Of a stretch of DNA of 48,123 nucleotides, positions 1 through 36,406 are shown in pieces. Every line of letters begins with the position of its first letter. The stretch's first letter is position 1. The notes under the pieces are model-generated. The model did not search any database, was not told the origin of the DNA, and saw nothing but the letters and a program-made list of their open reading frames with translations. This stretch comes from Actinomycetota bacterium (GTDB lineage Bacteria; Actinomycetota; Actinomycetes; Nanopelagicales; Nanopelagicaceae). The DNA is taken from the NCBI GenBank assembly GCA_026393015.1, contig JAPLBA010000006.1, positions 1 through 48,123 of the forward strand. The letters run 5' to 3'. The position numbers were made by a program, and so were the translations under genes.

Positions 1-296
1 GTGATCGCATAACCGGAATCGCGCAGAGTTTTGGCCACGACCGCTTCGCGCATCTCGGGTAGGCCGGCGGCCGGGGTATAGCGGTGGTTTGCCACCACTC
101 TGGTAGCAGCAGCGGCTGCAGCCACGATGTAGTCGGGGGTGGGGAAGTCAGGCTCGCCCGCTCCAAAGCCGATCACTGGGCGCCCAGCAGCCTTGAGAGC
201 CTTGGCCTTGGCATCCACTGCCAAGGTGGCCGATTCCGCGATGGCCGCGATGCGGGGGCTAATCCGGGGGCTGATGGGCGATCGTGCGTTGCTCAT
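1..296 (-). CDS. aspC: PLP-dependent class I/II aminotransferase, aspartate aminotransferase-like (N-terminal 98 residues; 3' end outside window)
   Basis: Reading the minus strand from the ATG at 296-294 gives an open frame to the window edge. The product starts [12 protein letters not shown] and continues with [20 protein letters not shown] and [15 protein letters not shown]. These are the N-terminal arm and the GxGEPDFxTP substrate/PLP-side motif of type-I-fold aminotransferases; [15 protein letters not shown] is the family's YTPxxGxxxLR motif. The PLP lysine lies beyond the window. Known role: amino transfer between aspartate or a similar amino acid and 2-oxoglutarate in the cytosol. An AGAG-type ribosome site precedes the ATG. 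The gene is divergent from tRNA-Trp and secE, an arrangement common in Actinobacteria. The exact substrate cannot be fixed from this fragment. Confidence 0.85.
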
Positions 297-2881: not shown

Positions 2882-2930
2882 GGTGGGCGCGCCGCCGTTT
2901 TGACGATAGCGCGCCCACCCTTTTACTCTT
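2882..2930 (+). terminator. intrinsic terminator after rplA, overlapping the rplJ promoter
   Basis: GGTGGGCGCG (2882-2891) is perfectly complementary to CGCGCCCACC (2910-2919) over 10 bp with an 18-nt loop. It is followed by CTTTTACTCTT. The GC stem plus U-rich tail fits a Rho-independent terminator 10 nt after the rplA stop. The loop is longer than usual and the T-run is interrupted, so efficiency may be moderate. The same bases hold a -35/-10 pair. Confidence 0.6.
2900..2929 (+). promoter_or_regulatory. promoter of the rplJ-rplL transcript
   Basis: TTGACG (2900-2905) and TACTCT (2924-2929) are separated by 18 nt, a good sigma-A-type promoter. The -35 lies in the loop of the inverted repeat 2882-2919 and the -10 in its T-tract. 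Predicted start is near 2936, just before the conserved L10 leader. The element therefore seems to end one transcript and begin the next. Confidence 0.62.
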
Positions 2931-2935
2931 TGCCC

Positions 2936-3044
2936 ATACCAAAGACCGCAGGTAGGAAGTTCTAAAGGTCGAAAGACCGCCCGCGTAGGTGAGCAGGTCC
3001 ATTCGTGGTCCCGGTCGCCTCGCGCGCCGGGATTTTTGATTTTT
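2936..3044 (+). promoter_or_regulatory. L10 leader RNA (ribosomal protein L10-L12 autoregulation)
   Basis: The 5' UTR of rplJ contains ACCAAAGACCGCAGGT (2938-2953) and GCCCGCGTAGGTG (2979-2991), both close to the conserved halves of the L10 leader family as I know it from Actinobacteria. A GGTC/GACC hairpin with a GAAA tetraloop lies between them (2967-2978). L10 in complex with L7/L12 binds this kink-turn structure to limit its own synthesis. An attenuator-like hairpin follows at 3009-3044. Confidence 0.75.
3009..3044 (+). terminator. attenuator terminator in the rplJ leader
   Basis: TCCCGG (3009-3014) pairs with CCGGGA (3027-3032). TTTTTGATTTTT follows directly (3033-3044). It sits between the L10-binding leader and rplJ, so ligand binding upstream could control transcription of rplJ-rplL, and possibly rpoBC read-through. 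The stem is short (6-7 bp), but the U-tract is strong. Confidence 0.6.
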
Positions 3045-3094
3045 AGCTCGAAATGCCGTGGTCAGCGGAGTTCGCACCATCGAAAGGAAGCCAT

Positions 3095-3607
3095 ATGGCA
3101 CGCCCAGACAAGGCAGCTGCAGTAGCCGAGCTTGCGGAGGATTTCCGTACCGCTCAAGCCACTGTGTTGACCGAGTACCGCGGCTTAACCGTGGCCGCGC
3201 TCAAGGAGCTTCGTCGCTCCCTCGGCGCCACCACTAAGTACGCCGTCGTCAAGAACACCTTGACGAAGATCGCTGCCCGCGAGGCTGGCGTCACTGTTCC
3301 TGATGAGCTTCTTGCCGGTCCTTCAGCGCTCGCCTTCATTAAGGGCGATCCTGTCTTAGCCGCAAAGAGCCTTCGCGACTTCGCCAAAGCCAATCCACTC
3401 TTGGTTATCAAGGGCGGCATCCTCGATGGCAAGGCGCTCTCACCGAAAGAGATCACCAAGCTTGCTGATCTCGAATCACGTGAGGTGCTCCTCGCCAAGC
3501 TCGCAGGCGCCATGAAGGCTTCAATGTCACAAGCCGCAGCGCTCTTCGTAGCACCACTTTCTAAGACCGTCCGCACCATCGAAGCGCTTAAGGCGCAAAA
3601 GTCATAG
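3095..3607 (+). CDS. rplJ: 50S ribosomal protein L10
   Basis: 170 residues from the ATG at 3095, chosen because GAAAGGAAG lies directly upstream and the product then starts [15 protein letters not shown] as in relatives. A start at 3053 would add 14 residues without a ribosome site. [17 protein letters not shown] and [13 protein letters not shown] are the conserved rRNA-binding parts. The C-terminal helix (about 135-170) is where L7/L12 dimers attach. L10 anchors the stalk that recruits translation GTPases. It is probably controlled by the leader at 2936-3044. Confidence 0.96.
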
Positions 3608-4098: not shown

Positions 4099-4149
4099 TT
4101 TCTTCCACCAGCACCATCAGCACCACCGCTAAGTAGTTGTCGTGATTGG

Positions 4150-4180
4150 GCGAGGGTGGTCCGGGAGACCGGACCATCGC
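4150..4180 (+). other. GNRA-capped hairpin between rplL and rpoB
   Basis: TGGTCCGG (4157-4164) and CCGGACCA (4169-4176) form a perfect 8-bp stem with a GAGA tetraloop. Four more pairs, GCGA (4150-4153) with TCGC (4177-4180), extend it below a GGG bulge. No T-run follows. In E. coli the equivalent rplL-rpoB spacer contains an attenuator and an RNase III site. A processing or partial-termination role here is inference. Confidence 0.6.
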
Positions 4181-4246
4181 GCCTGACTCGAGGAAGTAAA
4201 ACTCCATACACCACACAGTCATATATCGGGCGAAAGTGGTCGAAAC

Positions 4247-4285
4247 GGTCGCGAGTTGGTATGAGCGCGACCAAACGACTACGAT
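4247..4285 (+). promoter_or_regulatory. candidate rpoB promoter with inverted repeat around the -35
   Basis: TTGGTA (4256-4261) and TACGAT (4280-4285) are 18 nt apart; TACGAT is a good actinobacterial -10. GGTCGCG (4247-4253) and CGCGACC (4266-4272) are perfectly complementary and enclose the -35. An upstream TGGTCG (4237-4242) could compete for the right arm. The predicted start near 4292 gives a roughly 90-nt leader. It would let rpoBC be transcribed apart from rplJL. Confidence 0.5.
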
Positions 4286-4310
4286 CGCCCTTTGCGCACT
4301 CTTAACCGAA

Positions 4311-11775: not shown

Positions 11776-11786
11776 GGAGGCGAGCT

Positions 11787-11825
11787 GAGCCGACTCACCG
11801 AGTTTTGACCTCGGGAAGTCGGCTC
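11787..11825. repeat. two-tier inverted repeat spanning the rpsL -35 region
   Basis: GAGCCGACT (11787-11795) pairs with AGTCGGCTC (11817-11825). Inside, CCGAG (11798-11802) pairs with CTCGG (11810-11814), leaving TTTTGAC as the loop. This gives 14 pairs separated by a CA/GA internal loop. No T-run follows on the plus strand, so it is a poor terminator by the usual rule, though it could end rpoBC transcripts with help. Confidence 0.75.
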
Positions 11826-11834
11826 GGCTAACCT
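11805..11834 (+). promoter_or_regulatory. promoter of the str operon (rpsL-rpsG-fusA-tuf)
   Basis: TTGACC (11805-11810) and TAACCT (11829-11834) are 18 nt apart, a strong sigma-A-type match that resembles the rplM promoter at 35268. The predicted start near 11841 gives a leader of about 135 nt to the rpsL GTG. The -35 sits in the loop and right inner arm of the inverted repeat. Confidence 0.65.
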
Positions 11835-15011: not shown

Positions 15012-16205
15012 GTGGCAAAGGCAAAGTTCGAGCGGACAAAGCCGCACGTGAATATCGGCACCATTGGACACATCGATCACGGTAAGACCACTCTTACCGC
15101 AGCGATCTCCAAAGTGCTTCACGACAAGTTCCCAGACGTCAACCCCTTCACGCCATTCGATCAAATCGATAAGGCCCCTGAAGAGCGTCAACGCGGTATC
15201 ACGATTTCGATCGCGCATATCGAGTACCAGACAGAGAAGCGCCACTACGCGCACGTCGACTGCCCTGGTCACGCTGACTACATCAAGAACATGATCACTG
15301 GTGCCGCACAGATGGACGGTGCAATCCTCGTGGTTGCCGCCACTGACGGTCCCATGCCACAGACCAAGGAGCACGTTCTCCTTGCTCGCCAAGTAGGCGT
15401 TCCTTACATCGTTGTCGCACTCAACAAGTCCGACATGGTCGATGATGAGGAAATCCTCGAGCTTGTCGAGATGGAAGTTCGTGAACTCCTCAGCAAGTAC
15501 GAGTTCCCTGGCGATGACCTCCCGGTTGTTCGCGTTTCTGCGCTCAAGGCGCTTGAAGGCGATGCCAAGTGGTCCGAGGCTCTCTTGGGTCTCATGGATG
15601 CAGTGGATGCCTCTATCCCAGAGCCCACTCGCGAGATCGACAAGGCATTCCTTATGCCAGTTGAAGACGTATTCACCATCACTGGCCGCGGAACCGTTAT
15701 CACGGGCCGCATCGAGCGTGGCATCGTCAAGGTCAACGAAGAAGTTGAAATCGTGGGTATCCGCGAGACTTCACAGAAGACCACCGTCACTGGTGTGGAA
15801 ATGTTCCGCAAGCTCCTTGACGAAGGTAGCGTCGGTGAGAACGTCGGTCTCCTTCTCCGTGGAACCAAGCGTGAAGATGTTGAGCGCGGCATGGTTGTTG
15901 TCAAGCCTGGCTCGATCACTCCTCACACCGATTTCGAGGCCAACGTCTACATCCTTTCCAAGGATGAAGGTGGACGTCACACCCCGTTCTTCGACAACTA
16001 CCGTCCACAGTTCTACTTCCGCACCACAGACGTCACTGGCGTCGTTACGTTGCCTTCCGGCACCGAAATGGTGATGCCTGGCGATAACACTGAGATGAAT
16101 GTTGCACTCATCCAGCCAATCGCTATGGAAGAAGGACTTCGCTTCGCAATCCGCGAAGGTGGCCGCACCGTTGGTGCAGGTCGTGTCACGAAGGTTCTCA
16201 AGTAA
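15012..16205 (+). CDS. tuf: elongation factor Tu
   Basis: 397 residues from a GTG start with a strong AGGAGG site. Domain 1 has GHIDHGKT (19-26), [14 protein letters not shown] and NKSD. Domain 2 contains [13 protein letters not shown], and domain 3 ends [17 protein letters not shown]-Tu-GTP delivers aminoacyl-tRNA to the ribosomal A site. It follows fusA by 63 nt. The single copy closes the str operon; a large hairpin separates it from rpsJ. Confidence 0.98.
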
Positions 16206-16217
16206 TTCAGTAATACC

Positions 16218-16272
16218 TCTGGTTAATGCTGTTCTCGGTGGGGGAGAGATCCTCCACCGAGAAACCACCAGA
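16218..16272 (+). other. long GNRA-capped hairpin between tuf and rpsJ
   Basis: A 14-bp stem (16232-16245 with 16250-16263) has one G-T pair and a GAGA tetraloop. The left arm begins TTCTCGGTGG and the right arm ends CCACCGAGAA. Outside it, TCTGGT (16218-16223) can pair with ACCAGA (16267-16272). No T-run follows, so it is not a canonical terminator. It may end str transcripts, stabilise tuf mRNA or be a processing site. No convincing promoter for rpsJ was seen in the rest of the spacer. Confidence 0.7.
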
Positions 16273-16323: not shown

Positions 16324-16632
16324 ATGGCGGGACAAAAGATCCGCATCCGGCTCAAGGCATATGACCATGAGGTCATTGACTCTTCGGCGAAGAAGATCGT
16401 CGAAACAGTCGAGCGTACTGGCGCGAAAGTTGCCGGTCCCGTTCCGTTGCCTACTGAGAAGAACATCTACTGCGTCATTCGTTCGCCTCACAAGTACAAA
16501 GACAGCCGTGAGCACTTCGAAATGCGCACGCACAAACGACTCATTGACATTCTCGACCCCACGCCAAAGACCGTTGACTCACTTATGCGTCTCGATCTTC
16601 CCGCTGGTGTCGATATCGAGATCAAGCTCTAG
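16324..16632 (+). CDS. rpsJ: 30S ribosomal protein S10
   Basis: 102 residues, the family length. It starts [20 protein letters not shown] and carries [20 protein letters not shown]-type residues ([20 protein letters not shown]) that contact 16S rRNA, ending [13 protein letters not shown]10 is also NusE, the partner of NusB and NusG in antitermination and transcription-translation coupling. A GAGTAGGA site precedes the ATG. It heads the S10 block. Confidence 0.97.
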
Positions 16633-35253: not shown

Positions 35254-35267
35254 CCAACTCGCCCGCT

Positions 35268-35297
35268 TTGACCCGTCCGCTCTGGCGCGGGTAATCT
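35268..35297 (+). promoter_or_regulatory. promoter of rplM-rpsI
   Basis: TTGACC (35268-35273) and TAATCT (35292-35297) are 18 nt apart, a near-consensus actinobacterial housekeeping promoter that starts 14 nt after the ABC-F stop. The predicted transcript start is near 35304. CCCGC (35262-35266) and GCGGG (35287-35291) flank the -35 weakly. Confidence 0.68.
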
Positions 35298-36364: not shown

Positions 36365-36406
36365 AAGAGGAGCCTCGAACCACTTCGGTTCGAGGCTCCT
36401 CTTTTT
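36365..36406 (+). terminator. strong intrinsic terminator after rpsI
   Basis: AAGAGGAGCCTCGAACC (36365-36381) is perfectly complementary to 36387-36403 over 17 bp with a 5-nt loop. TTTTT ends at 36406. It is the clearest Rho-independent terminator in the window and separates the ribosomal block from glmM. Confidence 0.95.

Follow-up and report, generated by a model that had tools for sequence, protein, structure and literature searches.

Overlap of a terminator with the next promoter is known from Salmonella, in which, as described in PMC7055797, contiguous ribosomal and RNA polymerase operons are joined in this way (Brandis, Cao and Hughes 2019) and interruption of tufB–secE reduced fitness. 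In vitro, bacterial RNA polymerase has been shown to undergo recycling termination with facilitated reinitiation (PMC11347151), a possible mechanism for a terminator that feeds polymerase to an adjacent promoter. In Streptomyces coelicolor, an rplJL promoter is on record (Blanco et al., cited in PMC2904383), and in C. glutamicum, mapped ends at predicted terminators lie mostly within stems (PMC3890552), so that classical terminator rules should not be assumed.

The junction described here, between rplA and rplJ, lies in a 48,123-nt stretch of DNA, which we refer to as the window. As in the Salmonella overlaps described, the putative terminator of one operon overlaps the promoter of the next in a ribosomal/RNA polymerase cluster, albeit in another phylum and at other junctions, with the Salmonella geometry compared by description only. 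Set against that description, the family to which the window belongs places the hexamers within the loop, the tail or the stem of the putative terminator, in an overlap that depends on context and has been rebuilt with unrelated sequences. Terminator–promoter overlap between ribosomal operons being already known from Salmonella, we rate as new the unusually intimate, recurrently evolved version seen here. A literature search covering few subscription journals found no report of such an element at actinobacterial rplA–rplJ or rpoC–rpsL, which is weak evidence on this point. The features of the junction are:

2161–2871, + strand: rplA, encoding ribosomal protein L1, at the end of the upstream operon (Pfam Ribosomal_L1, E = 1.4e-67; reading frame)
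2882–2892, + strand: 5′ arm of the hairpin, GGTGGGCGCGC (sequence, fold, repeat count)
2893–2908, + strand: 16-nt hairpin loop with the –35 inside (sequence, fold)
2900–2905, + strand: –35 hexamer TTGACG, part of TTTTGACG (TTG core in the same place in nearly all relatives)
2909–2919, + strand: 3′ arm of the hairpin, GCGCGCCCACC, within the promoter spacer (sequence, fold, repeat count)
2920–2932, + strand: T-rich tail CTTTTACTCTTTG, a weak U-tract (sequence)
2924–2929, + strand: –10 hexamer TACTCT, inside the T-rich tail (conserved in relatives)
2936, + strand: predicted rplJL transcript start, within a few nt (from the –10 spacing and the site just before the L10-leader core)
2938–3047, + strand: L10-leader-like 5′ UTR of rplJL with the core ACCAAAGACCGCAGG (RF00557 below threshold; core conserved)
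3010–3014 and 3027–3031, + strand: attenuator-like stem ending the leader, CCCGG/CCGGG, then TTTTT (sequence)
3095–3607, + strand: rplJ (ribosomal protein L10; Pfam Ribosomal_L10)

The rplA gene ends with a TAG stop codon at 2871, and the hairpin starts 10 nt on. A sequence-only reading had described a perfect inverted repeat of 10 bp at this distance; the repeat (2882–2919) is indeed perfect and so placed, but extends over 11 bp. The same reading rightly put the –35 TTGACG in the loop and the –10 TACTCT in the T-rich tail, separated by a spacer of exactly 18 nt (2906–2923). Folding of the hairpin RNA gave –27.4 kcal/mol, with z-scores of –4.4 and –5.4 for two stretches and no shuffled sequence as stable. 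The 48-kb window has three perfect repeats that reach 11 bp or more with a loop of 3–30 nt, whereas ten Markov-simulated sequences of equal length yielded two between them. Pattern searches of the 1.81-Mb genome for TTTTGAC-N18/19-TANNNT returned only two matches, namely the rplJ and rpsL promoters, both with a hairpin. A generic promoter and terminator scan of the window called neither the rplJ promoter, because TTGACG/TACTCT agrees with the consensus at 8 of 12 positions (cut-off 9), nor its hairpin, because the loop limit of the scan is 8 nt. Terminator finders with short loop limits and consensus promoter scans miss such elements.

Judged by hexamers, spacing and conservation, the rplJ site is predicted to be a sigma-70/SigA-type promoter, and the 11-bp stem 10 nt past rplA provides the stable GC-rich RNA hairpin near the operon 3′ end that characterizes a candidate intrinsic terminator. 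The likeness to an intrinsic terminator lies in the perfect GC-rich stem just past the stop codon and, as far as the weak U-tract goes, in the T-rich DNA that follows; the differences are a loop that, at 16 nt, is longer than usual and a tail (5 T among the first 8 nt after the stem) that is short and interrupted because it must double as the –10 element. At the sequence level, the putative terminator of one operon and the predicted promoter of the co-directional next share the DNA at 2882–2932, an arrangement conserved in relatives and at rpsL.

Downstream, the 5′ UTR of rplJL looks like an L10 leader in its position, its core motif and its attenuator-like stem; with the Rfam model L10_leader (RF00557), however, 2921–3047 scores 20.4 bits where the gathering score is 44, which leaves the leader outside the Rfam membership. 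Nearly all relatives across the class have the core CCAAAGACYGC(N)GG, and its distance from the –10 is 9–11 nt in most of the family, reaching ~50 nt in genera g2, g12, g13 and g15. This fixed geometry provides independent support for the rplJ promoter. A dedicated rplJL promoter followed by an L10 leader, with motif spacing conserved class-wide, is shared with S. coelicolor rplJL and the Rfam L10_leader family; most sampled Streptomyces loci differ in having no strong promoter-overlapping hairpin. As a side observation, the RF00557 model seems to under-cover actinobacteria, given a class-wide core and a score of 20.4 bits against 44 in the window.

For comparison, 117 rplJ promoters at rplA–rplJ junctions from 16 genera of the family were sampled, along with loci from other families of the class; sampling by order gave this same family. 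At the 117 family loci a nearly invariant TTG-16..19-TANNNT promoter was found, whose spacer is nearly always 18 nt and which usually lies 9–11 nt before the L10-leader core. Each fold covered the promoter together with 40 nt upstream of the –35 and 9 nt downstream of the –10, and shuffles that keep both hexamers fixed served as reference, so that a hexamer by itself does not favour pairing with it. Fewer than 50 nt separate the end of rplA from the –35 at 73 loci in 13 genera; there, the hairpin overlaps the promoter, the median z is –4.79, and 68 of 73 loci fall below –3. At 20 loci with rplA ending at least 50 nt away the median is –1.3, and many of these have a separate upstream stem with a T-run; at 24 loci with no rplA directly upstream it is –0.96 (2/24 below –3). 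This context effect, at a 50-nt cut picked after looking at the data, has a Mann–Whitney p of 2e-12 regardless of relatedness, with same-genus genomes not being independent. Most loci hold little coding sequence, and relatedness was handled by genus-stratified permutation, which within the four genera having both states gave p = 0.0002. Class-wide, the direction is the same but weaker: with rplA less than 70 nt away, the median z is –2.2 and 6 of 14 loci lie below –3, against 0/14 with rplA at least 70 nt away and 4/30 in other contexts.

Proximity of any gene does not suffice. In genus g16, no hairpin was found at L118, L139–L141 and L143–L145 though another co-directional ORF ends 1–10 nt before the –35; therefore, a close upstream gene alone does not require one. 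We conjecture that the g16 genes just upstream of rplJ may be weakly transcribed. The opposite exception also occurs: in some genomes of g4 and g8 (L015, L026, L021), the dyad is retained despite a gene inserted between rplA and rplJ. Separately, we noticed that the ORF upstream of rplJ at g16 loci L118, L131, L139–L141 and L143–L145, in which rplJ is separated from rplA and no hairpin is present, has a C-terminus like GSTILVRRAPK.

The fusion takes several forms. The layout of the window, with the –35 in the loop and the –10 past the stem, is a minority form, found in g1, g14 and some g16, with other letters in L105, L137 and L138, and also outside the sampled genera of the family (L222–L224), where the loop again contains the –35 and the spacer the 3′ arm while the arm sequences differ. 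In the commonest form, the 5′ arm lies in the spacer and the 3′ arm includes the –10, e.g. TTGACG GGGGTAGGCC aacc GGCC TACCCT. An extended version draws the –35 into the 5′ arm as well, as in TTTGCCAGGGGTAGGCC...GGCTTACCCTTGGCA (L006, L032, L033; TTGCCA pairing with TTGGCA) and TTGACCAGCTTGGGCC...GGCTTAGGCTGGTCA (L093; TTGACC pairing with GGTCA). Genus g7 has long versions that span the entire promoter and have a small hairpin nested inside, around the –35 (L092, L115, L133). Finally, where room exists upstream, a separate U-tract terminator is used instead of the fusion, and an ordinary terminator then precedes the promoter (e.g. L016, L035, L146).

Between lineages the arm sequences are unrelated, with complementarity kept. 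In 38 distinct sequences of the commonest form, 89.7% of cells pair, compared with 34–62% when the arms are slid by 1–3 columns. Covariation among them amounts to 27 double-change cells, against 7.0 (s.d. 2.0) after shuffling of the 3′ letters, with 0 of 500 shuffles as high. The register of the 5′ arm relative to the –35 also varies (offset 23 in g9, 25 elsewhere, i.e. two positions closer to the –35 in g9), while the 3′ arm stays on the –10. What is conserved is thus the complementarity, whereas the 5′ arm changes both in sequence and in position. The alignment across related genomes that the sequence-only reading had proposed as a check bore it out: in 16 genera the –35 and –10 stay constant, and the arms of the hairpin show both variation and covariation. 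Among the four genomes of the window's own genus, the arms show one G–C to G–U change and no compensatory change, so that the covariation evidence rests on the family, not the genus.

Related designs had also been suggested for rpsL and rpoB, together with an architecture shared by RNA polymerase and ribosomal operons. The elements in question are:

11783–11834, + strand: rpoC–rpsL fused element with the stem AGCTGAGCCGACT / AGTCGGCTCGGCT, a second instance of the layout
11805–11810 and 11829–11834, + strand: rpsL –35 TTGACC in the loop and –10 TAACCT at the stem end, spacer 18 (sequence)
4228–4290, + strand: weaker third instance at rpoB, GGGCGA...TCGCCC and GGTCGCG...CGCGACC nested around TTGGTA-18-TACGAT (fold z –4.9)

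For rpsL, the suggestion found strong backing, including the same context dependence. Where rpoC ends 22–80 nt before the –35 (g1, g9, g12), a hairpin covers the promoter in 7/7 genomes (z –2.3 to –7.6); of 23 genomes whose rpoC lies 480 nt or more away or was not found upstream, none has the hairpin (z –1.8 to +1.1), and the distant rpoC genes end in a canonical terminator of stem and T-run (U-tract). At rpoB, the design is present in the window and one other genus, g14, which has nested dyads around TTGGNA-18-TANNNT with inner arms different from those of the window; equivalent nested dyads with other letters occur at L005 and L018, and in most other genera rplL is followed by a standard terminator. 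The architecture recurs at rpsL and rpoB as proposed but is not general; it appears where the upstream operon ends close by. Upstream of the rpoB dyad, the window also holds a separate strong hairpin after rplL (4146–4182; z –5.2), without a T-run.

Starting from the established anatomy, fixed promoter, conserved covarying complementarity, dependence on a close upstream operon and replication at rpsL, we favour, with a probability of about 0.78, the reading that 2882–2932 is an inter-operon terminator of rplKA embedded in the rplJL promoter. RNA polymerase finishing rplK–rplA would transcribe 2882–2919, and the rplKA RNA would form the GC-rich hairpin of 11 bp with a short run rich in U behind it, at which polymerase would halt or the 3′ end of the rplKA mRNA would be fixed. 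In duplex form, the same DNA would serve as the sigma-A promoter of rplJ–rplL, with the –35 in the loop and the –10 in the tail, and rplJL transcription would start near 2936, ~7 nt after the –10, opening directly into the L10 autoregulatory leader. Incomplete termination would then interfere with rplJ initiation, or recycled polymerase would feed it. The close-operon dependence, the use of ordinary terminators where there is room and the unconserved arm sequence argue for an RNA-level function serving the upstream operon, rather than an rplJ operator.

As relatives have rebuilt it many times with different sequences, the fused layout itself seems to be under selection. A bolder extension, tentative and in our judgement rather doubtful, is that polymerase does not leave the DNA after its release at the hairpin but starts again from the promoter on which it stands, linking L1/L11 to L10/L12 synthesis, and that streamlined actinobacteria repeatedly re-evolve this arrangement with new arms at rplJ and rpsL. 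More generally, compact genomes can set two strong ribosomal operons back to back within 4–40 nt, with one DNA stretch constrained twice: as duplex by the promoter hexamers and as RNA by the hairpin. The 5′ arm covaries with the –10, and the –35 with bases past the –10, which makes a natural record of this double constraint, and the natural variants (fused, separated, absent) are suited to testing whether the overlap insulates, interferes or couples the operons.

The strongest rival concerns how the rplKA mRNA comes to end at the hairpin. As the U-tract of the window is weak and interrupted, classical intrinsic termination may be inefficient here, and a protective 3′ stem or a factor-assisted stop is therefore conceivable: Rho or another process would terminate downstream, and the hairpin would block 3′ exonucleases. 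Tails are likewise weak in many relatives, in which T makes up 37% of the 8 nt after the stem against a background of 26%, at least four of these 8 nt are T in only 37% of relatives, and several lack a U-tract, e.g. TACCCTCGCC; furthermore, mapped ends in C. glutamicum fall mostly in the first stem arm and rarely in the T-tail (PMC3890552). Trimming, however, needs no hairpin inside a promoter and would leave read-through into rplJ in place, and the stems that genomes with room have at these junctions carry long U-tracts, a sign of intrinsic termination. We thus consider a purely protective stem unlikely.

Considerably less probable is a conditional element, i.e. an attenuator/antiterminator switch or an RNase III site tuning the rplKA/rplJL read-through ratio. 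Such control is common among ribosomal operons, and rplJ has an L10-leader-like attenuator downstream, but no alternative pairing partner was identified for the hairpin, the arms change freely in sequence, and genomes whose terminators are simple and separate manage without it. Slightly more improbable still is that the dyad is a DNA operator for a dimeric repressor or activator of rplJ. Its location across spacer and –10 is the usual one for an operator; yet between genera only complementarity is conserved, and the same conserved promoter occurs without the dyad when no strong operon lies upstream. With the arm sequence unconserved, we rejected this reading. Mere chance, by which a GC-rich repeat and a promoter might come to overlap when the genome is compact, would not be excluded by a single genus but is refuted at family level by the rarity of such repeats and by 13 genera, two loci and covariation far over controls, and we give it next to no credence.

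Elsewhere in the window, an unrelated promoter-like site after an ABC-transporter gene (35267–35297) showed no hairpin (z –0.2). A strong stem, TTCTCGGTGGGGGA...TCCTCCACCGAGAA, without a T-run lies at 16232–16263 between the ORF at 15012–16205 and an ORF at 16324. The genome uses the standard form of terminator too, as is exemplified by a textbook intrinsic terminator at 36365–36403, a 17-bp stem followed by TTTTT.
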